Part shown: piece by piece, positions 9,201 through 64,000 of the stretch
How positions within the stretch are numbered: position 1 is the stretch's first letter
Layout of the letters: each line of letters begins with the position of its first letter
Assembly (NCBI GenBank): GCA_949825025.1
Contig: OX463778.1
Span: 17,886,196 to 17,950,195, forward strand
Source: Siphlonurus alternatus
Taxonomy: Eukaryota > Arthropoda > Insecta > Ephemeroptera > Siphlonuridae
Reading direction: 5' to 3'
DNA length: 64,000 nt
Notes under the pieces: generated by a model
What the model saw: the letters and a program-made list of their open reading frames with translations, nothing else
Databases searched by the model: none
Told to the model about the DNA's origin: nothing
Program-made: the position numbers and the translations under genes

Positions 9201-9924
9201 GTAAGAAAACTCATTGTTTTATTTAAGACAAAAATAAGAAGTTAATGTAAGCTTCTTGTTGTATTGTCTTCGAAGTAATATAATGGAGTCATGAGAGACT
9301 TTAAAAAAAACAATTAACGTTTACTGTCTGTTTAAATGTTATTGTCAATGCAGCCTGCAAAGTGCCAAGTGCCGCACTGCATATTGTGACAAAAATAATT
9401 ACTGTAATTATTAGAGACATACGAACACAAAACAGCTGTACTATATTAAGAATATATTACTAAAGACTATTGTTGGCTATTTGCGTTTCAAACGTTAGTC
9501 TGAGTAAGATTTGTTCACAAATCTTGAGTCTGAGGAGATAAACTTGTGTATATAAATGATACATAAAAGTGAAAATGAGGTAAGAGAACTGAAAAGTCTC
9601 AGTGACCGAGGTTTTTGTTATAGTCAACTTTTATATATAATAAAGCTAATATAAATGTAATGTTATATTATACATTTCTCTGTCATTGCGCCCTGCAATA
9701 TTCTGTTTGACCTCTTATTGCTATACATTTTAATTTATTATCAAGGCATATAATACATGTATAAATTTTTATGTAAATTTGGAAACATGTTATACATTTT
9801 AGCTGATTTTCCCTCGGATTTTCCTTATATTGAGACTTCTTTTACATTAGGATATATTTTGTTAGCATTTTGTAACGAGTGCTGTGTATGTTGCAGGACA
9901 AGTAACGAGGGATCGCTGGACAAC

Positions 9925-12900
9925 ATGGGTCGCCGGCCCCTTCAGTACTCGAGCCCGGGGGAGGACAAGCGTCGCTCTAGCCCCCGGCCGGACCTCATCG
10001 AGAACGCGCTCGAGTCCTCCAAGGTGCACCGCGCCAGGGACAGGTAAGCTCTAGAAATACTCTCGGAACTTCTCGCACGTGGAAATATTTCACTGCTCGC
10101 TTTTTATGTTACACCCCATTCAAATAAAATTGTCCATCCGGTCATGTTAAAGTATATAAATATATATATAGCCAGATTGGACATTTTTATTTACATAGAG
10201 TGTGCTATACATATTTTATGTGCTCAAATGATTATCATAAAGCACGTGCGTGCTAAAAAAAACCCATATAATTTGACAGAAGTAAATAAAAAATCGATTG
10301 CATTCCGATATTCTATAATATACTGTGGCGGCTTTAAACTTTTTTTTTTTTTTTTTTTTTTATTTTACAGTAACACTGCAGGTATTGATCAGTAGAAAAG
10401 CTTTCCATATGCAGAAAGTTTTGACGTTAATTCTCTTAGAAAATATGTTGACAGCGATGATTTGGGTCGCTAAAATTTACTTCATGCTGATGGCTCGAAT
10501 GACATTTCACGTGTTCTATGGTGACAAAGATTCAAGAACAGTCCCGCAAGTCCATTGCTGATACAGTCGTGTTCTTACAGTGTATCGGAGAAGTCGATGG
10601 ACCTGAGCTCCCCCGAGGAGGGGGGTGGTGGCGAGATCCCGCACGTGCCGGGCCAACTGAACGCCGAGGAGCTGTACGCCGTGCCGGTCAAGCGGCGGAG
10701 CGCGGCGCGCCGAGGGAACAGTCCAGTTGCTGGGGGCGACGAGGAACGGCCGCTGCTGGGAGGTCGTGGGGACGAGGATGACGAGGCGGACGAGGATGAG
10801 AACGGAGAGTCGCTGCCTCAGGGCTGGGAGCGGCACGAGGGTGAGTCGGCCACGTCTCTCCTTTGGACTTCCAACAGTTTATAAAGAATGCCATGACTGC
10901 AAGGAATCTTGATTGCGTTTTACATCGATGATGGCTTATTTGATGACCACAGGTATAACAAAAATATTCAAAGGAACTTGCTATAATGGGGGGGGGGGGG
11001 GGGGGCACCTACTCACTATTCTAAAGCTGATGCTTTGTGCCTTTTTAATTATTTTGGATCTCTCATGCAGGGGAGTTTTTCCAACTCATTGTTTTCGCTT
11101 GCACTTATTAAAAATCCTTTAAATTTTTTTAGTTATTCGATATTCTGAGGTTCTGAGGGAGATAAGCTTTATATTATTTCAATTATTTTGACGTTGAATT
11201 TAATTTAAATTCTATCTACATTCGAACCAAATGTTGTACTGTTTTGTACGACAATAACACTAACTAGCTCATCGTTGTAATAACGCGTGGCTCCCGTGGT
11301 TGTAGATAACGACGGTCCGTACTTTTGGCACATAAAGAGCGGCACGATCCAGCGCGAGCCGCCGCTGTGCGACAAGAAGGACGCCAAGCGAGTACCGATG
11401 AGGGACACGGAGAACGTAAGTCACTCCTCGGTGAGGTTCGTGAGAAGTGCTGACGTGTTTGGTGCTCAGATGGTGCCCAGCTTCCCGACCGGCGTGACAC
11501 GCAGCAGCACCAGCTCGGCTCTCGAGGAGCTCCAAGATGGCGGCAAGCGCAAGGAGGAACGGCGGGAGGAGATGGCTTACAAGTAAGTTATTTTGTTCTC
11601 CAAGTATCAATAGAGGTGCAATCTGTGTGGGAATTAAATTTGATAAACTTGAATAATATTACCAAATTGAAAAATATTTATTTCCACAGTAAAACAATTC
11701 CTTAATTAAATTCTTGGATTATAATGCCATCCGAAGTATAAGTATTTTTAGCCCAAAAATACACTTTGATATTCCGGAAACTACATAACTCGATCGTGAC
11801 TTTTTATTTTATATTATAGCTTATTTAAAGTAAAACAAAAATATTCCTTTGTCTCGTTTACAACAAAGAAATTTAAGGCTGTATATTTATATAAAAATTG
11901 CCACGTACTTGTACAGTTTTACATATAATTGTGCTTTACACCTTGTATCTGACATTGTATCATGTATTACCCTGCTCGCAGGCGTCGCAGTTACCCTGCT
12001 CGCGCCGAGCCTGAGTCTAAGGAGCGCGCCATTCGGTTCGCCGTGCGCTCGCTGGGGTGGGTGGAGATCGCAGAGGATGACCTCACGCCCGAGCGCAGTA
12101 GCCGCGCAGTCAACAAATGCATCGTGGACCTCTCGCTGGGCCGCAACGACCTGCTGGACGTGGTGGGCCGCTGGGGAGACGTGAGTATTGTAATCAGCTG
12201 GGAAATTTACCTTCTCTTCTTTTAAATTGGCACTTTTTTTTTACTGTCTAATTAATTTTATATCTCATAAAAATAATTATATATTACATAAAATAATAAC
12301 AAGAATTTATAAAAATCCAAGTGGAATTTTGTTCAAAACGTAAATTGACTTAAGTTGAGTGTAGTTAATTTATTTATGTTTTTGTTAAATAATTGATGCA
12401 GAGAAATATTATAATTCAAGTCAATTAGAAAAACGTGAAAGTTATTTGTTAGGTAGTTATTCATTTATTTGTTTATTATTTATTAAAATTATTTTTATGT
12501 ACTGAATTTTAAAGAATTGAGAATTGAGTTGAAAATTTAAAACCAAATTTTCTATTTAATTTGATGTCACGCCCCCTGACTCGTCTGTCTGTTTTTCAGG
12601 GCAAGGACCTGTTCATGGATCTGGATGAGGGTGCCCTGAAGTTAATTGACCCTGAGAACCTGACGGTGCTCAACACACAGCCCATCCACACCATTCGGGT
12701 GTGGGGCGTAGGCAGGGACAACGGACGGTGAGTGATAAAAGTGACCAGCGTTGTACACTTGGTGTCTCTTCTATGCTCTTCAAGAGTCAAATTAGTTTCT
12801 AAATGCAAGGGAAAAAAATCCCAATCAATGAAATTAGCGAAAAGAATGAGTTTAATTTAAAAAAAAATATATTGTTCTATGACCTCTCTGAATACACTAA

Positions 12901-15900
12901 TTATCCATCTCCTTAATCAAATAATTAATTTTAATTAAGGATAACTTAATTAATTTTAATTAATTAATTTATTAGTTTTTATTAGATTTTAGTTGTTAGT
13001 ATAAAAACAATATAGACAAATAATCCATGTAGACTGAAAAATTAATGCATTTTATACATTGGGTACAACAATTTTGAGTAATGTTTAGCTGTACTTATGT
13101 ACTCCTTTTTATTATTAATTCTAATCTTCTTGTTATAGTCAATGAATTTAGTGACAAAATAATTGTTTTAATACCTTATTATATTTGAATGTGAAATTAA
13201 ATACACTAAAAAAAAAAAAAAAAAAAATGAATTCAACACACATACTTTTAAATATATTTTTATATGTAATAAAATATAAACATTGAAAGATATTTGATAA
13301 CTTAAAATCATAAATTAAAAAACATATTAAACCATTCTTCGAGCAACATCTTAATTAACTTGGTTAGCTGTTACTATGTGGTTGTAGCTAATTTGGGCTT
13401 TTTCTCTTTTCGTCCTGGTGCTGGTGGTGTGGTTCTTCAGAGAGAGGTAATCACCGTCTGTTTGTGCCTGCTCTCTCCTCGCTCTTGGCTGCATGGCTTG
13501 TCCCCCTGCATGGTGTGACCCCTAGCTCCGAGACTTGACGCTAACCTTCTTCTTTATTGCAGGGACTTTGCTTACGTGGCAAGGGACCGGGCGACTCGCA
13601 AACACATGTGCCACGTCTTCAGATGTGACATTCCTGCTCGAACCATCGCAAACACTCTCAGAGATATTTGCAAGAAGATCATGATCGAGAGATCGCTGCA
13701 ACAAAACCTCGCCAAACCAATTGACATTAGTAAGTACAGTAGTCTAAAGGTCAAACTTTATTATGCTACACTCTAGAAATAAAATAATATTGATTTTTTT
13801 TATTATTTAATTACTATAGTCTTTAAATAAAAGTCAATGTCCTATTTCTTGGTAAGAAAATAATGCACCTTGCATTATTTGGGGAGGAACTGTTTTCATT
13901 GAAAACTAAGAAAGTCTTTGTTTTATTTTATCATTATATATTTCACTGTTAAATGATATTCCCCTTATTGAACTGCTTTTTAATTGTTTGATACATGCTC
14001 GTACATGTCTCTAATTCCATGTTCCTCCCACAGGTGGGGTTGGTATCTCCGGACGTGCTGGCCTCGCAGCTCGACCTACCAACTTGCCAACGGAGCACCG
14101 TAGATTCCACACTCGCAACGGCCAGGCCCTAGTCAGTAAGTTTCTCAATCCCCAAGTAGACAAACATATTGGTACTTCAGAAGAAGGCTGCTGTAGAGTG
14201 TAGAGTGGGCACAAATAGGGCTAAAATTTTAACAAATTTAATTCAAATATTCCCATCTCAAATTGGGTAGAAAAAAAACAGATGAGATTATGTTATGTTC
14301 CAGTAGTTTTTTTGTATCAAAATCCAGTCAAAATGAAACAGAAAACAAGCTGGAATTAAATTTACTCACTTGGATTAAAAACAGAATATTTCAAAGTTCT
14401 CCTATATTTGGTCGGTGATTTGACTCTTTCTTTGCTCACAGCCCAGTCGTTCCCGACACCCATGGAGGAACCGAAGAAGGTGCTGCGAGCCTTCTACCTG
14501 GGCTCCATGCAGGTAACCAGGGCCACGGGCATGGACATCCTCAATGATGCCATCGAGCACATGATGAACACCAACCCAAGAGATCAGTGGAAGTCGGTCA
14601 ACGTGGCTGTTGCCCCCTCCATGATCTCCATCATGCTACCAGGGGTATGTCAGTCATTTGTTTCAGCAGCAAAACTATAATATACCGTCACTCACCTGCA
14701 AAATTTACCATTTATATGTTTTGGATGTTGCTAATAAAGCCAATAAATAAGTTTCTAGTTTTGGGAGATGTTGATTGAAATATAGAATGATTTTTTTTTT
14801 TTTTTTTTTTTTGCTGTGTAGTATTAAAATAGAACAAGAAAATTAAAACAATCGCATAAAGTAATAATAATATACAGTAATATATATTCTGTAAGTATCA
14901 AATAATTTTTTAAATATTATAAGATGTTGTGACTAACTTTTTAAATTTCAAATTTTTTTTTTTTAATATAAATAATTAAATACTATGTAATTTCTATCAA
15001 CTTATACTTTATTTTATTGAATTTATTGTGTTTATTAACAATATTAAATAAGATAAGGTAGCTAATCTCATTTCTTATAAGAAGGCCTGCAACTAACATT
15101 TCAACTCCACGGCACAGTTGGGCACAGTTAGGTGCCAAGTTCAATCTTGTGTTCTATTAACATTGTAATTTGAACTTGGCAGCCCGGTTGTTAATCCCCT
15201 TGTGCTTCGGCGCAATTGTGAAATTCACAGAGGTACCTAGTCAAAGACACTTGGCTGAACTGTGATTCTCACAAAATGGCCGAACTGTGAAAATCACAGT
15301 TCGACCAATGGTTTAGACTTGGTAGCTCTCCCCCGCCCCTTCTCCTTATTAATTTTTTATTTTTTCATTTCATTAAAGCTAATTAAGTTAACGTATTACT
15401 AAAAAAATGTAGTTTTTTAAATATTTTTATTTTATCATGGTAATTAACAGAGTACTCTAGCATAAAAAATTAAAACATTGATGCTAGCAGCTGCAACTCT
15501 TTTGTCTCTATCCCGCATATTGGCGGCCATGATGTCTGGTGATAGAATCCACTAATCAGCATTTCATGCAGCAGAGTTGAATTCATTGCCTGTAAAATTA
15601 TGAAAATGAGATTATAACACACATATGAAAAGATTTTGTAAATATTTAACTCACCACATAAGTAGCTAGCCTGGGCATAACTTCCTCAGTGTTGAAAGAA
15701 AAGAGAGAATTCAAGGGGGCGGGCTGGGCTGGAGAAAGAAAAGCTATGATAGGGCCTCTCATGATGTTAGAATTTGTAATAATCACTGTAAAAAAGAAGC
15801 AATTTATTAGAAAAAAAAGAACTTTGCTATTTCAATATACTTTTTAATATATTTCTTACCTTAATCTTTAAAGACTGCAAAGCAGACTTTTCCAATAAAA

Positions 15901-16778
15901 AAGAGACAGCATCTCTGTTTTTGTTGACAATGACACCCATATCATATGTTGTATGTTGCTTTTTTTTTTCTTACTTCAATTTTTTAGAAACAGATGGCGC
16001 TACCATCCGGGTATAAATTTTTTCAAAGTCCAAAATTAATAAATAAATTTGATAATAATTAGATATATTGCCAATGTAGTTTATTTAATGAAAAAAAATA
16101 TCAGTTGGATATTATATATATCAATTTAAGCATCATTTAAGCCCCTTCTAGTTCATAGTCGATACAACTTCAAAGAGTGTATTCAATGTGCCAAGTTACG
16201 CCAAGTTTAGAAAGCTAGGATGCTCTGGGGTACCTAATATAAACACTGTGCCCTACTGGATACTCATGGGCATTACAGCTTACCTAACTGTGAACCTTAA
16301 CTGTGCCCAATTGTGCCCTACTGTGCCGTGGAGTCAGGGACCATTTAAGTCTTGAGGTCCGCTGATGAGCCGTTTGTCTGTGCAGGAGGAAGAGCAGCTG
16401 GTGGCTGAGTGTCGGGTGCGCTACCTCTCTTTCCTGGGTATCGGCAAGGAGGTCAAGCAGTGCGCCTTCATCATGCACACCGCCCAGGATCTTTTCATCG
16501 CGCACGTGTTCCACTGTGAGCCATCTTCAGGTGCCCTCTGCAAGACCATCGAGGCTGCCTGCAAGGTGGGGGCTCCATCGTCACAGATGATGAACCAGAC
16601 CAAGTTCTGCATTGAGTTATTGCTTCATTATAATATTACTTAACACTGTAGTTTATTATAATGTCACATACATCAATATAATTATAAGACCTGGTGATAA
16701 TTTATCATTTTACCAGGAGCGAGCAACTTGCTCACCATCTCAATTTACATATTCAGTAGAAATTTGCACTTAAGGCAG

Positions 16779-16810
<32 letters not shown>

Positions 16811-17133
16811 ATCAAACTGACTAAAATGACATAACCAGCCAGATAGCTTACTTCTGGTGCAAAAAAATTTGAATACTTTTTCTTAATTTTTTTCTATGCT
16901 GCGAATTCAAATCTACATCTTACGTATCTGGAACTCTTAATAAAGCCTTATCCCCAAACTGACATGATTGTCTTCAGCTGCGGTACCAGAAGTGCCTGGA
17001 CGCTCACCCCACTGGCCTGGGGCGCGGACTGGCAGAGGCACACACCCCTGGCAGGGGCCTCGGAGCAACTCTCAAGTCCCTGGTGGGCTCACTGACCGGA
17101 CGGAAGGCCAAGGGAGCTAGTGCGGAGTCCTGA
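9925..17133 (+). CDS. FE65/APBB-family adaptor protein (WW + PTB1 + PTB2)
   Basis: A cytoplasmic/nuclear adaptor of the FE65 (APBB) family; family members bind the APP cytoplasmic tail through PTB2. Coding exons: 9925-10043, 10581-10840, 11306-11415, 11470-11582, 11982-12180, 12600-12727, (optional 13441-13446), 13563-13729, 14034-14135, 14442-14644, 16386-16565 and 16978-17133. All join in phase to give 578 aa, or 580 with the microexon. The start is the only ATG in the first coding exon (ACAACATGG context); that exon begins at acceptor 9897. An acidic N-terminal region is followed by a WW domain (about 118-146), PTB1 (about 218-362, with FAVRSLGWVE and RVWGVGRDNGR) and PTB2 (about 412-545, with ECRVRYLSFLGIGKEV and LRYQKC). 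The second WW signature Trp is Arg (GTIQREPP). The 54-nt gap 11416-11469 is in frame and could be retained. In vertebrates the gene has three paralogues, so no specific symbol is assigned. Confidence 0.95.
13441..13446 (+). CDS. 6-nt neural-type microexon of FE65 (Arg-Glu)
   Basis: Six bases, AGAGAG, lie between a good acceptor (GGTTCTTCAG) and a donor (GTAATC), inside the intron between exons 12600-12727 and 13563-13729. The upstream exon ends in CG and the downstream one starts GGAC, so inclusion changes Gly-Arg-Asp-Phe to Gly-Arg-Glu-Arg-Asp-Phe without altering the frame. Vertebrate FE65 is known to have a neuron-specific 6-nt exon encoding Arg-Glu at this same point of PTB1. TGC triplets sit just upstream of the acceptor, and TGCATG motifs lie at 13490-13495 and 13507-13512. 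Inclusion in mRNA is inferred. Confidence 0.8.
15104..16334. mobile_element. Non-autonomous TIR DNA element in an FE65 intron
   Basis: The ends form a terminal inverted repeat of about 15 bp (ACTCCACGGCACAGT at 15104 and its complement ending at 16334). Subterminal copies of GGGCACAGTTA follow at both ends. The 1.2-kb interior is AT-rich, without coding capacity, and has CACAGTT/AACTGTG motifs in both orientations around 15215-15305. I could not define a convincing target duplication. The right end is about 50 bp from the acceptor of the exon at 16386. Confidence 0.65.
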
Positions 17134-18219
17134 GATGAGGCCACGGCGCTGCAGGTGAGGCCGTCTTGAAAGTGATTTTGTCAGCTAGAGAAATGACTTG
17201 GATACAGCCTGTAAAACTTGAGTTTTAATTGTAAAAATCCTGTGTGGCACTGACTGCTGATTACATTAGTTTGAAGTGAATAGTATTTTAAATTTCTTCA
17301 TAAAATTTCATTCATTCATTCCTTTTTTTTTTTTTTTTTTTTTTTTTGCTTATTTGTTTTAGTTTTCAATCAAATTCCTTTGATTTTGTCACAATTTTAA
17401 ATAAGCATAAAAGAAGAACAATTAATATTGACTTCAGAAAACTTTTCAATGACAGTATTTAAAAATTATTTAAAAAATTTAATAATAAAGTTAATACCCT
17501 TGACACCATTTTACCCTTTCGGGTGTGGCCAGGCCGATATTTAGCCTTGTCAGTAAGAGTTATCTTGTGACCATGCTGGGGCTTACCAGGCTCCCAGAAC
17601 CCTTTTCCTGCACTTTTCTGGGCTCCTACTACCAGATCTGTGCAGCCTGCAGTGGCAGTGCAATACTGCAGGGCAGCAGAGTATAGACAGCCGTAAGCTG
17701 CCTTCCTCCTACCAACTTCATAATCTATAGTAATTAGTCACACCCATCCCAAGTCACGAAAAGTCTGCCGTGTTCGGGAATTGAACCGGGGACCTCTCGG
17801 ATCAGAGCCAGGGGTACTAACCACTACACTACAGAGTGGATTTAAAAAAAAAAAAAAAAAATTATTTTGCTAATAAAAAAATAATTACATTATATTACCT
17901 ATAATGATGTATACTGTAACTGCTTGCCTGAAGTTTTCTCAATACATCAAAGCTATATTGGCATTTCTTTGTTAGAGAATTTTTCCAAAGCAACGATTGT
18001 ATCGCTGGGTATCAAAATCTTGTCCGCTTCTTTCAGGATGGACCATGGAGTCCTCCCGAGGAGCGCGAGGTGATTCCCCACCGCCACCTGCAGTCCCCGC
18101 TGACGTGCGAGATGTTCAGCGGAGCCGAGTGCCCCTCGCCCCCCGCCTCCGAGGGGGAAGAGGAAGAAGAAGAGGAGGAGGCCCCTGGGACCCCCCCTCC
18201 CCAGCAGCCCTGGCAGTGA
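17134..18219 (+). CDS. Possible FE65 C-terminal extension (stop readthrough or alternative splicing)
   Basis: After the TGA at 17131-17133 the same frame continues for seven codons (DEATALQ) to a donor at 17154 (CTGCAG|GTGAGG). The next acceptor (CTTCTTTCAG) starts an exon at 18037 in the same phase, which stays open for 60 codons to TGA at 18217-18219. The extension is Pro/Glu-rich, with an uninterrupted run of eight Glu, and most codons end in G or C, like the certain FE65 exons; composition turns AT-rich soon after the second stop. Readthrough would add this tail. Alternatively, exon 16565 could splice straight to 18037, also in phase, giving a shorter PTB2 with this tail. It may also simply be 3' UTR with an intron. 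Confidence 0.4.
17510..17839 (-). mobile_element. tRNA-derived SINE
   Basis: Read on the minus strand from 17839, the element starts with a tRNA-like head. It has an RNA polymerase III A box (TAGTGTAGTGGTTAGTACC) and a B box (GGTTCAATTCC), followed by a GC-richer unrelated body running to about 17510. This is the classical layout of a tRNA-derived SINE. It sits in the FE65 3' intron between 17155 and 18036. An A run lies next to the head on the plus strand; the 3' tail is AT-rich and not sharply bounded. Confidence 0.85.
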
Positions 18220-20600
18220 GAGACCCTCCCCTCCCTTAGCGAACACTGAGCAAAAGTGCAGCAAGACATCAATAATCAGTAACTATCAAACATACTGTTA
18301 TCTAGTGAAATTTACTAAATGCATATTTGTTTATTAGAATATATTAATATATATAATAAACTGAATGTCTCTTTGTGGGTCCATATAAGTGAATCAAAGT
18401 TCATAGCTCTTCAAGACTCTGTTACTAAAAAAAAAAAATAATAATAATAATAATAAATAAAAAAATAAAGGCAGATTGCGTGGAAAAGTGATTTTTAGTT
18501 CAATATCGTGAGAAAATGGAAAAGACCAAGAATTTACAAAAAAAGATAAAGGACCGATTTAATTTTTCGGCAAAGTTGTTTTGTGTGTGCAAATATGTGA
18601 AATATGAGATAGAAATGTTAATTATTTAAAAAAACAAACAAATATTTAATAGCTACTGAATATAACTATTTATTTCACATATGTTTGAGAATATATATAA
18701 TACTACAGTAAATATGTCTTGCCCACCTACAGATAATAATAGTTGTTAATAATTAGTACAGTACTACACACACAGGTTAAATAAATTGTTTTTTTGTTTT
18801 TTTCAACCTTTTCCCAAAGATTTCACAGTTAGCACAAAGTGTAATTAGTAAACAAATAATTATCGAGTAAAATAAATAAAAACTTATCTTACATGATTGT
18901 CATGTCCATTGCTGTATAATATTGTGGTTTTGTATCATTGTCTGAACTGTCATTTCTATCCCTGCAATAAACTACTGTGTTAATTGTAACCTCCGCTGAA
19001 CGTATCAAATAATTCAACATCTTTATCTGCTCTTATGAAGATACAAAACCACCAGCCTCATAATTATTTAATAAAAAAAAAATCACACCAAATGAAAAAA
19101 AAAAAAAAAAAAAAAACTTGAAAAATATTATATATACTGTAGCTGATTGGCTTGAATGTTTCATCCTCTGGATTTAAAAAAATTAAAATATTTGTGTATA
19201 TATAGCAAATAGTCCAGACTCAAGAGTAAATGTGACTTAATTGCCTTTGTATTTAAGGGCGAATGTGCCATTAAAATGTGTGAATGTATTGAGAATTACT
19301 ACCCTACTACTTGAAATTACAAAACTAGATGAAGAAAAAAATAATTAAATAAAATTAATGTGAATCTTATTCTAATATGATACAATAAATTATACCTTCT
19401 TTTTTTTATCCTACGTACAGAGTTTTTTTGTTTAAAAAAAAGTTATTAATTCACCATTTTAATGTTAAATCTTGTCAAGTCTGAATACAATACACACGTT
19501 GGTTAAGCTGATTTGACTAGTAGCTGATCTTCTTCTGTATTTATTTTGTATAAAATATCTTCATTATGTAATTAACATGCAGGACTTGAAACAAAAAGGT
19601 TATAATTTAAATGAATGTACCCCTTAAGTTTCTAGAAGTGCACCCAATAGAGGTTATAATTCACAACCTTTATTCTCCCCCAAATTGTTAAATCTGTGAT
19701 TATTTCTTTAATCTTCAATCTCCCCAAAATTGTCATAGTATATTTCATCCCTTCTGTGGGCCTTTTGTGGATCTTTTGGTAGAGCAACTTCTAGAAACTT
19801 CTGAAAGGGTTGAACAGTACATGAATTTATTTTTCAAAATCTTGTAAAACTGTAATTTAAATTATAACTTTTACCATTTAATATCTTTTTGCATGTTATT
19901 TTCATGAATTGAAAAATTTACATTTGAATCTCAGTAAAAAGTCCTTCATATAATTAAGTATGAGGGCTTAATTGCAAAGTGTTTAACTGTGTTGGATTTG
20001 GATATATGTCGTCAATATCCGTGTGCAAAGTATACTGTGCTGCACCCTCGCTGCTACAACAGTAATTATAGTCTTCAGAAATATTGTACAGTAGGAGCTA
20101 ACAGTTTACCATAATAATAACAAGATTATTTTTATTTAATTTTTTTTTAAAGACTCTTAAATAATAAAATATTAAAAAATACATATAATTATATTATGGT
20201 GCAATAATTATTGCTAAGTATACTCTTCAGTGAACAAAGCACTCTGTTTTGAGAAATTATGTAATGATATTCTAATTGTTTTTATCAAAAAGTTTGTATT
20301 GTTTATTATTTTGAAAAAATTCATATATCTAAATAAATAATATTCTCCTGGTATTATAACAAAGCGATATTTTTGTTTGCAGTTCTTGTGACTCTATAAT
20401 ATAATAAATAAATTATAACTCTGTGTGAGGCTGAGCGATGTTCACTCTACAAATAATAATAATAATGATCTGATTGCTTGCACCATATAGACGAGCCATG
20501 TGTAGCCATCAAGCTGAGCTGCAGCTAAATAATTATGCCTTCTGTCAATAAAACATTTATTTCAAATTTTTGTTTTTATTTTTTATAACGTTAATTATAT
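18220..20600 (+). other. FE65 3' UTR and downstream AT-rich DNA
   Basis: No coding exon is visible. Composition becomes strongly AT-rich soon after the second in-frame stop. Candidate polyadenylation signals include AATAAA at 18966-18971, followed by a GT-rich stretch, and another in CAATAAAAC near 20550. Which one is used cannot be told. A/T homopolymers and a TAA repeat near 18440 are present. Confidence 0.5.
18966..18971 (+). terminator. Candidate FE65 polyadenylation signal
   Basis: A canonical AATAAA lies about 750 bases after the distal in-frame stop, with TGTGTTAATTGTAA just downstream as a possible GT-rich element. Several other AATAAA hexamers lie further on, so this is only the first good candidate. 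Confidence 0.35.
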
Positions 20601-22708: not shown

Positions 22709-25700
22709 ATGGAAAGAGAAAATGAGAATGAAGTTAAGTTGTCTTTCAAAACCAAACATTCTCGGCGAGCAAAGAAGTACAGCAATGTGCTGAGCAGAGA
22801 ATACCAAGCAGTGTGCACAAACCACCCCACTTCAGTAAGTATATAAGTATAATATATTATACTGTATATAGTAAGCAAGCAATTAAACATAAAATAGTTT
22901 TGATGCTAGGTTTAACTAGAACAACCACGCATGCATCTATGCCTTTACTTTTCAAATAAATTGTCCTAGATCAGCTTCACTATGAATCGTATGATAATAT
23001 TGAAGTACATACTGTATGATAGCCAAAATAACTCCAAGATTCCAGAATATATGCGGGGGAAAAGAATTCCCTTTAGTTCACCTAAGAACAATACCTTTAT
23101 GTATGCCATAGTATTATAATACTTACATGCATGGTTTTATTATCAATCACATTCATCATTTCTGATTCTCAGACGGTGGCGATATGCAATTCTGGCCTAG
23201 CAACTGGTCTCTCCCGAGAACAACTTCTTCAACTGGCCCTTCCATTTGGACGTGTCAAAGACGTTATCTTGGTACCAGGGAAGTCAAGCTCGTTCATCGA
23301 TTTCTGCAGTGAAGAGGTGGCTTCTCGGGCCTATCATGGTCTGCATGGCAAACCGGCGCCTCACATTAAACAAGGAGAACTTTTCCTGGCCTTCGTGGAG
23401 AAAGGTAGGCCACTCTATCATATTATATGTACACTCCTCGCCTCTGAAAAATTCCCTTCTGCAACCTTGTTAATCACTATGCCCTATGTTATTCTTATGG
23501 GGTATGGTGATTAACAAGGCATCATTAGGGAACTTTTCAGTGACAAGGAGTCCCTCAATGATAGAGAAGGAAGGGGGGAATAAATACTGTAGTGGTTTAG
23601 GGTAATTACTTCTATAAATATATAAACTGCACACAAGGGGCTCAGCAGTGCAGTAATCTCTGCATTTCAATGACTCAGTTACTGTTCTACCTACGTTATT
23701 GTATCCCAAATATCCCGATGGACACAATATATTATCTCCCTTGTTGGAAAGAGTCTTCCATTTAAATTCATTCTAGTATTGGATGTTGCTATATCTAACA
23801 AATACATGTCATAGCCCCTCGGGTGGAGGCGGCCTGGGGAGAGGAGCTGCCCGAGGGACTGCGGCTGGTGCCCAACTTTGTGAGCTGTGAGGAGGAGCAG
23901 GGACTGATGGACTGCATCGACTGGACAACGAGCGATCCTCAAGCAGGTGAGTCCCCTCCTTTGCACTGTTGAGCATCACATCTTTCGGGGAAGAGATAAA
24001 TTTTTGTTTCAATATCTAGTTACTGTGAATATCCCAGAGCAACCTACAAGTACGAGAAGAGGGGGAAAAGAGAGGTGCAATAAAAAAAACTGTATATGTT
24101 TTAATTACTGTATGATCAAAATATTGATAACTTTTTACATACAGGACCAAGGACAAGTTAAGTATTTTAAGGCACTGAATACAATACCTTGTACCAATAT
24201 ACAAAGTACATACACTAGCCATCACATTTAACTTGGTTATGGTCGTGTTTGTAACGTTCTCAGTTATTGGTAGCCAGTTTGTAACGAAGGACATCACTGG
24301 CAGAGCCGAGCCGAATGACTTCCCGAGTGGTTCCCACCTTAACAAAATTAAATGTTAAGGCTAGTGTACTGACACCTCAGAAAGAGACCTTTCATATTCT
24401 TCTTCTTCTAACACTCCTGAATGCATTGCAAGTTAAAAAATATATAAAATGTTTGAAACTTAAGTGTATGTCTAGTTTGGGTACAGAGTTTTCAAACTTT
24501 GGGTATGAGGTTACAATATTTTGTTTGCAGGCCAAGCCCTAAAGCATCGTCGTGTGCGGCACTATGGCTACCAGTTTGACTACGGCACCAACAACGTTGA
24601 CCCAGAATCCCCGCTGGACGATGGAATTCCCCAGGCCTGTGATGTTGTTCTGAATAGACTGTCAAGTGCTGGACTGGTGCCATGGCGACCAGACCAGATG
24701 ACTGTCAACCAGTACCAGCCAGGCCAAGGTGACTACAGCCCGAAGAAAAGTGATTAGTTCCTCATGGTCTAGTAACTACGGAACATATATGCAAAAAAAG
24801 AATATAGTGCAATTATTGTTGAAAAATCAATTCATGAAATTAACTTCCTTTCTTTTCAATGTACTGTATTTATTTATTTATTTTTTTTTTCCAAATTTCA
24901 TACTAAAAATAAGATCAATAAGATGTGATTGCTAAAAAATAAAAAATACTGTAGAAGATTTTTATTGTCTCCATGATTTTTTCGTCATAATTATCCTTAA
25001 GTCCTTCTGTTGAGTTTCAAACAACATGCAGCCAGGCAGCTTGACTTGGTGGTTAGATGACTTACTTGACCAACTCTCTCTGCAGGCATCCCTCCCCACG
25101 TGGACACCCACAGTGCCTTCGAAGACCCCATCCTGTCCCTCTCACTGGGGGCTGCCGTCGTGATGGAGTTCCGCAGGGGGAGCCGGATGGTGCCCGTGCT
25201 GCTACCCAGGAGGTCTCTGCTTGTCATGGCCGGGGAGGCAAGGTGGGTTACTCCTGTCAGTTTTATCAGTAAAATTGGAGTATCATGCTGCCTATATTAA
25301 ATCAATTTTTAAGAAAAATAAACCATAAAGGTTGTGATATGTTATTTAGTGCACTGCTATGTTATAAAATATTAAAGTGTATTTCAAACTGTTCCTTTGT
25401 AACCAAAATAACATATTAATTGGAATAATAATAATAATTTAGTCCCAAAATGTCCTTTCTCTTTCAGGTACTGTTGGAGCCATGGTATCACCCCCCGGAA
25501 GAGTGATATTGTGCCGTGTGTAGAAGGGGGGATGACGCTGCAGCTACGGGAGGTGCGCACCTCCCTCACCCTGCGCCGCCTCCGTCGCGCCCCCTGTGCC
25601 TGCAGCCACCCCCAGCACTGCGACTCTCAGCAAGCTCAGCTAGACACTGGACTGGAGCAGTCAGCAGCTCAGCTGGAAAATCTGCATGTTCACCAGGCAA

Positions 25701-49748: not shown

Positions 49749-52700
49749 TTACAGCTTGGACTTCGTCTCGGCGTTGGTGCGGTCGAGTCTCGCGTGAATG
49801 TGTCCGGAGGGCATATCCACGGGCATGAGCACCTCACCGGGGCCTTGGCCGACCTTGGCCTTGCCCTTGAAGTGAGACAGGTCAAGGGGTAGGTAGTGCA
49901 GGTTCGGCATGCGCACCGTCACGTTCTTGATCTGCGCACAAAACAATTAGCCCCTGTAATTCACACTTCTCTTCCTACAGTCACGCTCAAGAGGTTGCAT
50001 ATTTTACAGGCGAGGATATAGTTTGTTTATAAAAAAAATTATCACCACAACATTATTTCTGTAGATTTCTATAGCTTTTAGACAAGAAAACTTCATAGCT
50101 TACGCGTCTACTGATTATATGTTTAACGCATAAAATTATTTTATATAATATATGTAATTTTATTTTCAAATAAATGTATGTTCACATATAGAGCAACTTT
50201 TAGCAATGGAGTATCGACCTCAACTTTTTTTTATTGCAGAAATGGATAGAAGGTGAAAAGTTATGCTACCCTGAATTTTTTCAGATTTTTTAGAGCCTAG
50301 GAAGTATTTTTAAAAAAATATTGAAAGTACTTTTTGTGACGTCACGCGGCGACAAGTCCTATCTTTTTTCTTAAGGAGCGGCGTCTCGTGATATCACAAA
50401 AATAACTTTCAGTAATTTTTTAAAAATAGTTCCCGGGCTCTAATAAATCTGAAAAAAAATCAGGGTAATAGCATAACTTTGCTCCCTCTATTCATTTCTG
50501 CAATAAAAAAAATTGAGGTCTATACTCCACTACTAAAATTTCTTAAGAACATTTCATCAAAGAAATCCTGCGTGATTTTTTTATCCTCGCTGGAAGGTAC
50601 TGACCTGCGGCACTGCCTGAAGGACAGCTCGCTGCACGCGGTACATGGTGTGCTGGACACCAAGAGACATGACGCCCGTGTCTGGAGGACCGGCGAACAA
50701 AGTGATGATTGCCGCACGAACAGCCCGCCACGCTGCACTAAAGTCGATGTCAGCCGTCCCATCATACTCCCAGTCCGCGGTAACCTCAGTCGCCAGAATC
50801 CGGTCGTCCGCGTCCGGCAGCGTCCGGAAGTCATCCTAAGAGAGCAAGTCACTTGGTAAAAGATTCCCTCATTAATTTGGTTTCCAATCTCACCCTAGAA
50901 AAGTTGACGAACTTGGTCTGCGTCGTTTTCATGATGGACATCTTTTGAATGCCGGCGTGGATCGTCGGGACGCTGAGCTCGCCTGTACATAAGACGATAA
51001 TCGATAAATAATTTAATGTATAGTACTAGGCCTGTTCGTAAACCCTGCTTGGTGCACACTTTCTGCACCCAATTGACCTTATGCAAAAGGACATAAGGTC
51101 GATTGGGTGTAGAAAGTGTACACCAAGCAGGGTTTACGAACAGACCTATTATACAGTATACTGCCACATTAAGTATAAATCTTCTTTACTAATAAAATTT
51201 CATGATTCCGTCCGCCACAACAGGCAAACGACATGCAAGATCTATTGCTTAACATGCACTACGTTCACATGACGGGGTTTAATACGTATCCGTTGACAAC
51301 GCCTCATAAGAATAACATTAATATCCGTCGTTAACGAATCCGTATTAAACACTGTCATTTACACGTAGCGATGGTCAATTCAACTGAGGAACTAACAAAA
51401 ACCTGTATATATATAATAACACCTTTACAGGCAAAATGTTACTTGGAGTCTATACGAACAAAATGAGATGATGAGAGATGCTCGTAACTCACAATATAAC
51501 GATTATGTATACTGTTTTGATTTCAATTTTTGCGCAACCAGTGCTTATGTATAAATTTATAATATATTATAATAATATATATAATATTATAATATTGTCC
51601 CACAGAGTTCCACATACGAACTTAGAATGTGGAACTCTGTGAAAATTATCAAATTATAGTATAGAGCATGCATATGATAGTTACGGTGTTTTAATTATTT
51701 TCAGATTTTCCTCTGTACTGCACGGGGAATATTAAAAAAAAATGTATTATCAAATCTTTTCAGTATTTATTCCAGTGAATTCAGTAGAATAACTGCTCTG
51801 CTGACGTCATCAGTCATTCATAAACACGTACCTGTGGGCAGACGACGTTGTTGCGTAGAACACACGCGCAGGGCACTGGGACAGCGCAGGAAGGCGTGGT
51901 TGTGAGGCCCTTTGGGCGTTAGGATTCGCCGCCATGGACTCTCCTCGATGCTAATTTGCACCTATCAACACGACCGTTCGAGTAATTAATGGTGCTGTCA
52001 ACATACGTATAATTAACTGTGCCATCAAGCCAAGAAATAAGAGCCTATAAACATTCTGATCTTCGTGTCAGAGAACAGTAACGTTCATTTCCTATATATT
52101 GTTAATATATAATAATATGAAAAATGAACACCAGGAAATTTTAAAATATCACCTACAATGTTTTTTGAAAATGATATAGTTACTTTCATCAGTTCAAGAA
52201 GTTGCATTGCTAAGACAATGTATTGAATATTCGCTCTACTTAAATTTGATTATTTAATTGTGTAACAATTATGCTGGCATTTCAGTTTTTCCTTCCATAG
52301 TAATTTAACTGTCATTTTTTTACATAATTACTTTCTCGGGGAGAATATGATGACATTAAAATAAATTTATAATAATAATTAATAATATAATATATTATTA
52401 ATATAACTTCTCTGTCAAACAAATTATATTAATCGCTACATCAACGATCTTGAATAATTATTAACAATCGTGGTGGTATGTACACATGGAAAAGACAAAA
52501 GAGTACTTGAAGAGAGTGGATCGATCGACTTCATTAACTATAATATGCTGATAATGTTTATATTTTAATAATTTTAAGATACTTGATTGTCTGATCCCCT
52601 AATCAACAACCACAATCGATACAAGTTATACAGGGTAAGGCGTAAAGCCAGCACCTAAGCTTTCTCTGAAAGACTCACTTCGACGACTTGCGGGTAGGTG

Positions 52701-55523
52701 TTGAGGAAATGTCTGCAGAGCAGCAACGCGAAATTCTCGGGGCACTCGACGCCGTGTTGGCGGGCCAGCACGTACACGGTGTTCTTCTGCGTGTCCGTGG
52801 CGATGAGGTCCTCGTTGTTGCCGTCCAAGTAGTCCTTGACCGAGTCCAGCCGCAGCTCCGTGTTCACCTGCATGTAGGACAATCAGTTTTTGTTTAATAA
52901 ATCATTGCTAGGAATCTGTGGCGGGTGTTTTTCTTCTCCTTCTCGTTGGTCTTGCCACGTTTCATATCTTTCTTTCGAGCATCTTTTCAAGCAACGAGAC
53001 GATCGAAACATGACAAGATTGTAATATATTGTTTATATATTGTAATATGTATGTTTTATACATATTACAATATAATGTTTAAATTTAAAACATATTAAAA
53101 CATATTTTAAATGTTTATTACTGAATAAACACGTTTAAAATATCAACGATTCAGTCATGGATTTTCTCATTACATTCATGCCATAAACATTTTAATCATT
53201 ACGATGAATCAAATCACCTCTTGCTGTCTAGCTGATGTTAGTCTAGGAGAAGGGGGAGCGTCTTGAAATAAATAAATATTATATGACTAGGAATATTATG
53301 GATAGCTGAATTAAGATACAGGCTCCTCTTTTATTATAAGGTGATTTTTGTTATTTATAACTGTTAGGATAAAAATTAGCGTAAAAAAACATAATTTATG
53401 TTTAGTCATGCAGTATACCGTTATTATAATGTAAAAAGTGTAAAAACCCGTTTGAGTTTAGCAACAGATTTTTCATAAATTAAATTTTATTCTCGTATGA
53501 CATTTTCGTGGATATTAAATTATATGGAGAGTGCATCCCCGAAATTTCATTTAATTTAAAGCTAATGATGCGTGAATCGCGGAAAAAAAACCCTCGGAAA
53601 AAAAACCCTTGTATTAAAAAACCCTTGAAAAAAAACCCTAGGAAAAAAAAACCTCGGGGATAAAAAACCCACGGAAAAAAAACCCTTCGCTGAAGGAGCA
53701 GCCCCAAGGAGCATTCGTGGCGTAGTAGCGCGGTAGCGAGGTTTCACGGTGTGGGGAGCTCATCAAAATGTAGAAGTCTACGCGGCGATGTTGTGGAAGT
53801 TAACTATTATCTGTATAGTAATTCCAACTGTGTTTTTTGTTAAAAATTATTTTAAAAACATTTTTTCTAACTTCGAATATTATATATTGGATATAAAATA
53901 ATTAAAATAAAAAAGTAATAAAACAAAAAAAGTCGTCGTCCTACTCGTATTATTATTATATAACATATTATAGACATAAAATGAACATTTGAAAATTATA
54001 ATATCTAATAGGTTCAGTGATTCAATAATTATTATTAACATGACTAATGAGACTAATCAGATATATGATATCTTATGTAATATATATTATTGGAACATAT
54101 ATAATGATAATCTGTCAAAATAGGAAAAAAAAAATGAAGATAGGCAAGCTTTAACTTAAAAATGCCGCAGCGCCGCATTCTGACATCGCTTCGTCCGTAA
54201 GGTTTGTTAGGAGAAAAATCTTATTTATTTTTTCATTCAAATTCTATGCTGCACAAAATCTCGAATATTTTTTACTACGCCACGAATGCTCCTTGCAGTC
54301 CTTGCAGCGAAGGGTTTTTTTTCCGTGGGTTTTTTATCCCCGAGGGTTTTTTTTCCTAGGGTTTTTTTTCAAGGGTTTTTTAATACAAGGGTTTTTTTTT
54401 CGAGGGTTTTTTTTCCGCTTACCTGATGCGTACCTTGTACTCGTGGATGTAGTGCACGTTCCCGTCACACCTCTTGTACAGCAGGCGCACGTGGTTCTTG
54501 CCGTAGCCGTGGTGCGTCAGACGGAAGCGCTCGGCCTCGGTAGGAACCTCGTCCAGCCCCGGACCCGTCCACTCGCCCGTCACGTCCAGCTCGCTAGCCC
54601 TGCACGTGAAAAGCTCGTCAACTCTCTTACCCTGTCACGTGCATTTTAATTCACACAATAATATTTGTTAATGGTAGCTATAAAGAATCACGTAGGATTT
54701 GACCTTAAAGGAGTGCCCTTCATGCACTGATAACATTATTTATTTGTTGTCCCCTGCTTCCGTTATCCAGTGACGACCCTCTCGTCCAATACAATACTAG
54801 TCAAATACAATAGCCAGCTATACAGAAATTAGTCACAAATCACACTGCAGATTTATGCTGAAATTTAATAAGTTTTTATTTTTATCGTCAAGAGATCATC
54901 AATCCGATACCAGGCATGCAGTACCATTTTTTTTTTTATTATTATTTTTTAAATTTTATTATACATCATATCAGTAGTATTCATTGTTACTTGTTACCAA
55001 GCAACTTGTTGCTCCTGTGTTCTCTCTTTCTCTTTCTCAACACAGCTCCTTCACATCCATTAACAAGACGCCACTGCCGCCAACAAGGTCATCGTAGCAC
55101 CAGAAATGGCACCAAAACCCGTCCTCTTCAGCATAGCAACCACCTTCCATGATTTATGCAATGATACTATATTCATAAGATGGATATATAAAATGTAAAT
55201 TTATAAAAATAAAAAAATTACCAGCAGCAATTCAAGAGCATTTGAATAAAAAAATGCATATTTTAAAGTTATGGTCAATGATGTTAAACAAAACAACAAC
55301 AACAAAAAACATTTTACTTTACTATACTTATAATAATACTCCAGCCAAAATATAAAAACATAAAATTGAAATGCTGTTCTCCTTGAATTACATATAGTGT
55401 ACGTGATACTGTCATAAAATTGAAAATTCATGGTCACTGTCTTAATTACTTACAAGTTAGTATAAATTAACTGCAGTATGAATCTATAAATAACAAGCAA
55501 TAAGGAACCTTGCAAACTTACAT
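49749..55523 (-). CDS. Urate oxidase (uricase), peroxisomal
   Basis: Oxidises urate to 5-hydroxyisourate in purine catabolism. Minus-strand exons: 55523-55522 (the AT of the start codon), 54599-54434, 52867-52679, 51961-51832, 50982-50894, 50835-50605 and 49931-49749. All are in phase, giving 329 aa. Active-site residues of the family are present: Lys35 (HGYGKNH), Thr80-Asp81 (ATDTQKNT), Phe195 and Arg204 (DDRILAT), Gln253 (GVQHTMY) and His281 (MPNLHY). The C-terminus SKL is a PTS1 peroxisomal signal. The start codon is split: exon 1 ends ...TTGAACAT and exon 2 begins GGCTAGC, making ATG GCT with A at -3 and G at +4. No other in-frame ATG precedes the conserved region, and the upstream frame has a TGA. 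Exon 2's donor is AAG|GTACGC; a transposon sits right behind it. The intact catalytic set suggests an active enzyme. Confidence 0.95.
50198..50539. repeat. Fold-back palindromic element, family B copy 2, in a uricase intron
   Basis: A 342-bp imperfect palindrome. Left-arm GGAGTATCGACCTCAA and the block TATTGCAGAAATGGATAGA have reverse complements in the right arm. The centre includes TGACGTCACG. It shares the ATTGCAGAAATG(A/G)ATAGA block and layout with 5137-5469. The right end is about 65 bp from exon 50605-50835. Confidence 0.85.
51027..51148. repeat. 122-bp hairpin in uricase intron
   Basis: Arms of nearly 60 bp, including CTGTTCGTAAACCCTGCTTG and its complement, around a loop of a few bases (CAAAAGGA). 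Only a few mismatches, so probably a recent fold-back or MITE insertion. Confidence 0.85.
51601..51642. repeat. Small hairpin in uricase intron
   Basis: CACAGAGTTCCACAT and its reverse complement are separated by about 12 bases. Too short to classify. Confidence 0.75.
53574..54423. mobile_element. 850-bp TIR transposon inserted at the uricase intron-2 donor
   Basis: Terminal inverted repeats of about 150 bp run from GCGGAAAAAAAACCCTCG (53579) to GTGGCGTAGTA, and in reverse from 54272 to 54417. The TIRs are themselves built of A-runs alternating with CCCT/CGG blocks. Both sides carry TGATGCGT (53566-53573 and 54424-54431), a plausible 8-bp target duplication. The interior is AT-rich with no transposase. 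The right-hand duplication occupies positions +3 to +10 of the uricase intron-2 donor. The exact termini are uncertain because the outermost 5-6 bases of the two ends do not match. Confidence 0.8.
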
Positions 55524-55816: not shown

Positions 55817-56174
55817 CTTAAGGGTAAGGTAACGCCACCAATGTTAAAAAAAATCCCTCTCACAAAAATTCTGAAAAAAATTTAAAATGTTCTCCTCTAT
55901 ACCCCCTATCAGTACTTAAAATATCAGGTATACAAATACGATCTAGTTTTTGAGTTATACATTTTTAAAGTTGACTACTTTAACATGGAGAAATGAAACT
56001 CCCATGTTAAATTGGTCAACTTTAAAAATTCATAACTCAAAAACTAGATCGTATTTGTATACCTGATATTTTAGCTACTGATAGGGGGTGTAGAGGAGAA
56101 CATTTTAAATTTTTTTCAGAATTTTTGTGAGAGGGATTTTTTTTTAACATTGGTGGCGTTACCTTACCCTTAAG
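55817..56174. repeat. Long near-perfect palindrome, family A copy 2
   Basis: A 358-bp palindrome starting CTTAAGGGTAAGGTAACGCC and ending in its reverse complement, with the tip near 55995. Blocks such as CAGGTATACAAA, GTTCTCCTC and CTATCAGTA are shared in the same order with 21716-22088. A third, unrelated palindrome follows within 10 bp. Confidence 0.9.
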
Positions 56175-56182
56175 AGAAATGA

Positions 56183-56890
56183 GCTTAAAGGCCTTCTGAA
56201 CCTTTTCACAGTATTAAGTGCACGGTTAGCTTTGCTTCAGGGTGATAATTTTTTTGGTTTCAGTAGCACAAATATCAGAGATAATAGCCGATGAAGAAGC
56301 ACCTGTGACGTCATTCACGCTCATTCAGCGGCGACAATATAGGGAAATCCCTGCAAAAGATAGGTTCACTCCCGCTGCAACCACGGCCACAATTTTACTT
56401 CTGGAATTTTGAAACTTTACCAAGGCAGTCTTGATAGTATTTGTCAAATAGACTGAAAGAATTTTTTTGGTGGCGTGTGTACAGATTGAGTTATTGCGGT
56501 TGCAAGATAAGCTAAAAATTTAACATTGTTTTCCTATACAACATTTTTGCTCCTCTTTCTACCGCAATAACTCGGTTTGTATGAATGTCATAAAAAAAAA
56601 CCTTTCAGGCTATTTGACAAATACTATCAAGACTGCCCTGGTAAAGTTTCAAAATTCCAGAAGTAAAATTGTGGCCGTGGTTGCAGCGGGAGTGAACCTA
56701 TCTTTTGCAGGGATTTCCCTATATTATCGCCGCTGAATGAGCGTGAGTGACGTCACAGGTTCCTTTTCATCGGCTATTATCTCTGATATTTGTGCTGCTG
56801 AAACAAAAAAATTTATGCAGCCGAATCACCCTGAAGCAAAGCTAACCGTGCACTTAATACTGTGCAAAGGTTCATAAGGCCTTTAAGTGC
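56183..56890. repeat. 700-bp palindrome directly adjoining the previous one
   Basis: The left arm starts GAGCTTAAAGGCCTTCTGAA and the right arm ends in the complement of GCACTTAAAGGCCTTATGAA. The arms of about 340 bp are highly similar throughout, including GTGACGTCA and CTGCAACCACGGCCACAATT blocks. The centre is near 56535. No coding frame. Probably a large fold-back transposon. Confidence 0.9.
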
Positions 56891-57481: not shown

Positions 57482-62896
<5,415 letters not shown>

Positions 62897-64000
62897 CCTT
62901 GCGTCGCCTCAGAACGTCAATTAATGATAAACCATTGAAAAATAGCAAGCAGCAAGCAAAATACTTTCAAAATGATGAAATTGTTGTTAATAAATAATTA
63001 AATACAAGAGGAAGATTAATGCTTAATGTAATTTTGAAATGTATTTCTTTTATTCATATGATATTATCCACTCCATGTAAATAGTAATAATCAATAAAAC
63101 CACTTTGAAGCAAATTTATTTTATGCGTTTTGATACAATGATTTATGAATTTTTTATGTTATTATTTTTTACTTTTTTATTAATACATCAACCATCAACA
63201 ACAAAATCAATAACATAAATTATAAAATGTAAAATATGACCATATAATACAATAATATGAATTTTAAAAGCATCTGATTTGCATTTTCAGATGACTCCTA
63301 TAGATTTTAAACTTTAATTAATGTTTCGGTTTCCTTCCAGTAACTATAGTGCATGGAAATTCTAATACCATGACTTATGACATCTTTACTAAACAAGTTT
63401 TGAGCGTCAACAAAGACAGCTTTTATTTTAAAATAAGAGCTCCATAGTATTCAACAACAGAACTTAAATAAATTATTAAGCTCCCATTTCATTTAACGTT
63501 GATAATTACAATATTTAATTATTATATTGCTCAGTGTTAGTACAATGTTCAATTGCTTGCTCTAATTTAAATATTGTCATTCAACTTTAAAAAAACAAAC
63601 AAATAAGTATTTGAACTCCTTTGTTTTGGAAAAGCTGCATTCCCATACTTCTTGTAATTTTATCAATTATTTAAAAACAATTAAATACTATATTTTATGA
63701 AACAAATAAAAAAAAAAATGAAAAAAATGACTGAAAGAACACAAAAATTTAATTTTGAGTCTCTATATAATATACGAGGCTGCCACTCAAATCATAATTA
63801 TATTAAAGAGCGCTAAAGCCTCTAAACAATCTAAACACAAGACAGATTCCTACTCTCGATCTACTGTAGCTAAAAATGTTATTGTATATTAAAAAAATAA
63901 TAATTACGAGAGAAACATTGTAATAACCGATATTTTATTTAACACACTATTGCTGGTCTTTGACAAAAGCATTAAATAATGACACAATGTTATTAGCATA
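62897..64000. other. Upstream of the gustatory receptor gene
   Basis: Very AT-rich with no coding frame, RNA or repeat I can identify. It should hold the receptor promoter, but no distinct TATA/initiator pair stands out. Confidence 0.6.

Follow-up and report, generated by a model that had tools for sequence, protein, structure and literature searches.

Does the mayfly Siphlonurus alternatus carry, within an intron of its Fe65 (APBB) gene, a counterpart of the six-base neuronal exon of vertebrate FE65? The question is raised by the string AGAGAG at positions 13441–13446 (plus strand) of the 64,000-nucleotide stretch of genomic DNA analysed here, referred to below as the window. In vertebrates APBB1, APBB2 and APBB3 share the place of an alternatively spliced microexon that is more than 400 million years old, according to the excerpted text of Li et al. 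2015 (PMC4317164). We conclude that AGAGAG is very probably a cassette microexon of insect Fe65, predicted to add Arg-Glu to the PTB1 domain at the place of the vertebrate neuronal exon.

The Fe65/APBB gene occupies 10581–17133 on the plus strand, with GT and AG at the splice junctions of its listed exons; our model starts at 10581, and the true 5′ end may lie further upstream. An exon at 10581–10840 lies upstream of the exon (11306–11582) encoding a WW-like stretch, DNDGPYFWHIKSGTIQREPP, which matches Pfam WW with an E-value of 0.0016, under the Pfam cut-off; a similar sub-cut-off WW match is found in the Fe65 proteins of Cloeon and Tribolium. PTB1 starts in the exon at 11982–12180 and continues in those at 12600–12727 and 13563–13729, the exon at 14034–14135 links PTB1 to PTB2, the two parts of PTB2 are encoded at 14442–14644 and 16386–16565, and the last coding exon (16978–17133) reads LRYQKCLDAHP... 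to the stop, all on the plus strand. The joined protein contains two PID/PTB stretches (Pfam, E = 2.8e-40), and its best match among those listed is ‘protein Fe65 homolog isoform X1’ of the mayfly Cloeon dipterum, at 85% identity. In a tree of 39 PTB1–PTB2 regions, from which the insert had been removed beforehand, the window and Cloeon sequences pair with 100/100 support and share 92% identity over 311 columns. A second Fe65 copy was considered and rejected: a profile search of the species’ own genome (456 Mb, 102 contigs) returned nine PID matches, and of the eight loci fetched the window locus is the only one with Fe65-like exons. Another of the PTB loci (L005) resembles Numb by eye. The Fe65 gene has been described as lost in arthropods in a 2021 review (PMC8304848, as excerpted), a statement contradicted by the many insect Fe65 names among the matches listed, where crustaceans, spiders and a millipede are also represented.

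The six bases lie within the 835-nt intron 12728–13562, where they follow ...TTCTTCAG and precede GTAATC; the wider context, read directly from the window, is ...GGTTCTTCAG-AGAGAG-GTAATCACC. With AG before, GT after and the reading phase kept, they would divide the intron into a 713-nt upstream part (12728–13440) and a 116-nt downstream part (13447–13562) with donor GTAATC. The upstream PTB1 exon (12600–12727) ends in ...RVWGVGRDNG plus CG and is followed by the donor GTGAGT (GGACG/GTGAGT at 12727), while the downstream exon (13563–13729) starts with G plus GAC TTT, encoding DFAYVARD, behind the acceptor TTGCAG (TTGCAG/GGACTT at 13563). Translation of the joined exons gives N-G-R-D-F-A-Y on skipping (...VWGVGRDNGRDFAYVARD) and N-G-R-E-R-D-F-A-Y on inclusion (...VWGVGRDNGRERDFAYVARD), so that PTB1 with the insert reads GR-ER-DFAYVARD, and the joined frame from 10582 to the stop at 17131–17133 stays open both ways, with 556 codons when the microexon is skipped and 558 when it is included. 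Two other sources of an insert at this junction were ruled out: an alternative acceptor, as there is no AG six bases ahead of the AG at 13561–13562, and an alternative upstream donor, as six extra bases would give a stop (CGG TGA). The human FE65 counterpart reads GRERDFAYVARD, and PTB1 with the insert aligns to the crystal structure of human FE65 PTB1 (PDB 3d8d) with an E-value of 1.2e-47 and no gap across GRERDFAYVARD. The letters and the open joined frame thus bear out the sequence-only reading of AGAGAG, with its AG and GT borders, as in-frame Arg-Glu between CG and GGAC, and the gap-free alignment, together with the insert found in relatives, upholds its further claim that an arthropod here matches the six-base Arg-Glu microexon of vertebrate FE65.

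Three protein searches (120 proteins, then 119 and 56 new ones) provided 295 distinct proteins among the matches listed, in which the junction could be compared. Arg-Glu is inserted at the same place in 103 of the 295, from arthropods to fish, in agreement with the deep conservation that had been proposed; the forms are NGRER (61), HCRER (28), HGRER (11) and one each of NARER, NSRER and NGREK. A further five of the matches listed show another two-residue change (QGNER twice, and NGRNR, NGRSV and QRLFR once each), 180 have no insert (NGR 162, HGR 10, HCR 4, NNR 2, and NEH and NGS once each) and the junction is unreadable in the remaining seven. Among the matches listed, the insects with the insert include beetles, sawflies, bees, thrips, a planthopper and a damselfly (genera Tribolium, Neodiprion, Thrips, Nilaparvata and Ischnura), the non-insect arthropods the amphipod Hyalella (P0131) and the spider Uloborus (P0292), and the more distant animals the land snail Candidula (P0136), the urchins Lytechinus (P0153) and Strongylocentrotus (P0172) and fish APBB2; lineages were looked up for four species. 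Each row stands for a cluster of proteins at 90% identity among the best 120 matches of each search, so that the counts show both forms to be present in databases and not how frequent either isoform is or how much it is used.

In two insects both forms are annotated as isoforms. Tribolium castaneum X4 and X3 (P0044/P0076) are identical except for the two residues, as are Chelonus insularis X1 and X2 (P0040/P0073), and five further isoform pairs show additional differences elsewhere. The two clean pairs have the same two-residue presence or absence that we predict for the mayfly, with the difference that they are annotated proteins and the window is known from genomic letters alone. The expectation that annotation pipelines would miss the exon finds no general support, since NCBI-named insect models such as Tribolium castaneum X4 contain the insert; on the other hand, the sole mayfly protein among the matches listed, that of Cloeon (P0001), lacks it. 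Forms without the insert are also found in all five named dipterans there (P0126, P0130, P0283, P0288 and P0294) and, again among the matches listed, in the amphioxus protein and in such nematode proteins as could be read at the junction. Loss in flies, as the five dipteran rows might indicate, would fit the small overlap reported between fly and mammal microexons. Two rows of the gall-wasp group, Belonocnema and Leptopilina (P0101 and P0111), read QGNERDFAY where other wasps have HGRER, with the first insert residue changed, possibly an altered microexon. In Sinocyclocheilus (P0199), representing a cluster of 208 members, Asn replaces Glu in the insert (NGRNRDFAY).

The donor consensus is GTRAGT, of which the upstream donor GTGAGT matches six of six positions and the microexon’s donor GTAATC four of six; the latter ties with GTGGGG at 16566, in the last intron, and falls below the other seven listed donors. 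On the acceptor side, the tract is 55% pyrimidine over the 20 nt used, a candidate branch point CTAAT lies at –53 (13388–13392) and 51 AG-free nucleotides precede the acceptor; for the downstream acceptor, CTAAC at –22 (13541–13545) may serve as branch point. The sequence-only reading had several TGC triplets in the 30 nt before the microexon acceptor; there is one, at –22 (13419–13421), which sits between the TTTTTCTCTTTT tract and the microexon, with no further TGC in the 100 nt before the acceptor. It may serve as an SRRM4/eMIC-type UGC, by analogy with the SRRM4-dependent protrudin exon, for which the 3′-most UGC is required (PMC5247714, excerpted), and with the layout described for eMIC targets in the text seen of PMC8797185: a UGC near the 3′ splice site, a long AG-free zone, CUAAY and weak splice sites. 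Fe65’s ordinary acceptors span the same range, with TGC in the last 30 nt of four of the eight others listed (there at –5 or –9), AG-free stretches of 14–117 nt, branch-point matches of comparable quality and a pyrimidine content of 55% in three of the eight, and for this reason we reject the Srrm-type signals as proof. The acceptor layout is compatible with an eMIC target and not telling.

Downstream of the microexon the two TGCATG motifs that had been pointed out are indeed present, at 13490–13495 and 13507–13512 on the plus strand. They are the only plus-strand copies within 9600–18400, lie at most 66 nt from the microexon’s donor and have no counterpart in any of Fe65’s seven other listed introns, so that the pair is the one local feature to set this intron apart from the others listed. 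Their putative role as Rbfox sites follows the over-representation of TGCATG downstream of human alternative microexons (excerpts of PMC4317164), and in these motifs the predicted exon resembles Rbfox-promoted microexons. When the intron was shuffled 4000 times with its dinucleotides kept, a pair of TGCATG within 25 nt arose twice, but the real window has five such plus-strand pairs, and at least two copies of TGCATG are found in 618 of its 63,885 116-nt segments (0.97%).

Granted that the exon is real, its inclusion in this insect might be widespread or constitutive, the neural switch being a property of vertebrates. We consider this unlikely, though it deserves some weight: the Srrm-type signals are not distinctive, and the form with inclusion is the cluster representative in 62 of 120 proteins among the matches listed, many of them insect models. 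Against it, both forms are annotated in Tribolium and Chelonus, the TGCATG pair and the weak donor GTAATC are features of the window itself, and vertebrate Fe65 forms without the exon occur mainly outside neurons, as stated in the excerpts of PMC8304848. The genome also encodes an SRRM_C domain, which we take to be the eMIC region: one match in the species’ own genome stands above the Pfam cut-off (33.3 bits, and 32.4 bits in a second search), so that a candidate eMIC-type factor exists. The match falls in an Arg/Ser-rich frame at 1495–1818 on the minus strand of locus L009 (contig C2), likely the eMIC-coding exon of Srrm234. In the fly, the eMIC domain is encoded by the neurally used last exon of Srrm234, according to the available text of PMC8797185. 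The predicted microexon resembles known members of the eMIC (Srrm3/4, Srrm234) programme in its UGC between pyrimidine tract and exon, its weak donor, the strong donor upstream and the SRRM_C domain in the genome, and differs from them in that its acceptor features are also within the range of Fe65’s ordinary introns.

Convergence, that is, an independent gain by protostomes and vertebrates of a microexon adding two residues to the same loop, is rather improbable in our judgement. In its favour, only four fly eMIC exons are reported to be placed as in mouse, with convergence preferred for the three that were not found across all other insects examined (PMC8797185, in part), and in Tensin, too, microexons fall at this turn of the PTB domain (PMC4317164, in part). 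The included or skipped label is moreover scattered on our tree, with 11 changes against a mean of 11.0 for shuffled labels, a scatter that fits both forms being widespread with one of them annotated; a single origin is not itself shown by the tree. What speaks against convergence is that the length is the same and the residues are the same Arg-Glu in arthropods, a mollusc, echinoderms and fish, as judged from proteins, the codon split being visible in the window alone.

Finally, that AGAGAG, with its AG and GT borders, arose by chance within the intron and goes unused by this insect is scarcely credible: the nearest mayfly protein among the matches listed does lack the insert, and the motif class (AG, six Arg-Glu-coding bases in phase, GT) occurs three times on the plus strand of the whole window, but such a motif appeared anywhere in the intron in 8 of 4000 dinucleotide shuffles (and in none of 4000 with TGCATG at most 75 nt downstream), and both residues and position recur in 103 of the 295 relatives, among them many insects including a damselfly. 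This recurrence of Arg-Glu at one position across so many relatives is the decisive evidence, and it outweighs the chance odds.

The preferred reading is a regulated cassette exon, in which AGAGAG would be spliced by this species mainly in neurons and the common ancestor of protostomes and deuterostomes would already have had the exon, as we infer. Given the tiny size of the exon and the poor quality of its donor GTAATC and of its acceptor tract, skipping would be the default. Inclusion would then likely be switched on in neurons by an eMIC-type Srrm protein acting at the lone UGC that lies after the pyrimidine tract and before the exon, and a candidate Rbfox protein may aid neuronal inclusion from the two downstream UGCAUG sites. 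As to the effect on the protein, structure predictions of the two Tribolium isoforms (mean pLDDT 63.9 and 63.2, and 83–84 in the block with the site) leave the flanking PTB1 strands unchanged. The inclusion model has strands at 378–383 and 392–398 joined by a loop of eight residues (384–391), and the skipping model strands at 378–383 and 390–396 joined by a loop of six, so that with the insert the hairpin loop connecting these PTB1 strands is predicted to grow from six to eight residues. The insert adds charge as well, and likely tunes partner binding, as for mammalian APBB1, where the insert raises binding to Tip60/Kat5 (PMC8911335, excerpted). Deletion of the exon in Neuro2A cells left neuritogenesis unaffected, as stated in the text available of PMC5247714.

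Elsewhere in the window, a 325-residue open frame at 61934–62908 (minus strand) matches the Pfam 7tm_7 chemosensory receptor family with an E-value of 6.2e-19, and a frame at 52658–52882 (minus strand) matches uricase (Pfam PF01014, E = 9.5e-10). An RRM-type frame at 23086–23511 (plus strand; Pfam RRM_1, E = 8.8e-5) and methyltransferase-like frames recognised by eye to about 30000 possibly belong together to ALKBH8. Three large inverted repeats at 56261–56800, 55846–56144 and 53579–54418, with arms of 257, 143 and 114 nt that are 90, 95 and 98% complementary, respectively, are possibly non-autonomous transposons.

In being six nucleotides long and encoding two residues of PTB1, the predicted exon resembles mini-exon 9 of vertebrate APBB1/FE65 and its APBB2 and APBB3 counterparts, from which it differs in that its host gene is that of an insect. 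We predict it to be homologous to the vertebrate APBB microexons and likely to have been present already in the bilaterian ancestor; its match to the optional six-base exon of vertebrates means that the splicing switch likely predates the split between insects and vertebrates. The literature consulted already places the exon before the vertebrate APBB duplications, and what the present comparison adds is its reach into protostomes. The literature searched, which was limited in reach and partly available as excerpts, yielded no description of an Fe65 microexon outside vertebrates, and neither feh-1 nor Fe65 was found in the excerpts of a C. elegans paper (PMC7706725). Some microexons are common to animals from human through arthropods according to an eLife 2025 study (PMC12626424), whose excerpted text does not name the Fe65 exon. 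We thus predict with high confidence a real and very old microexon, with an evolutionary depth that has possibly been overlooked.

A bolder proposal, to which we give about equal credence either way, is that this is one of the oldest neural splicing switches, a regulated neuronal cassette that eMIC and Rbfox proteins already recognised in the ancestor of insect, snail, urchin and vertebrate. The neuronal microexon programme is reported, in the text seen of PMC8797185, to be nearly completely rewired between fly and mouse, and the Fe65 exon would in that case be a retained fossil within it. If inclusion is neural, the exon would be a rare shared test case for neuronal microexon function across animals, and would allow one to ask whether a single exon has remained under the control of Srrm and Rbfox proteins from the bilaterian ancestor onward.
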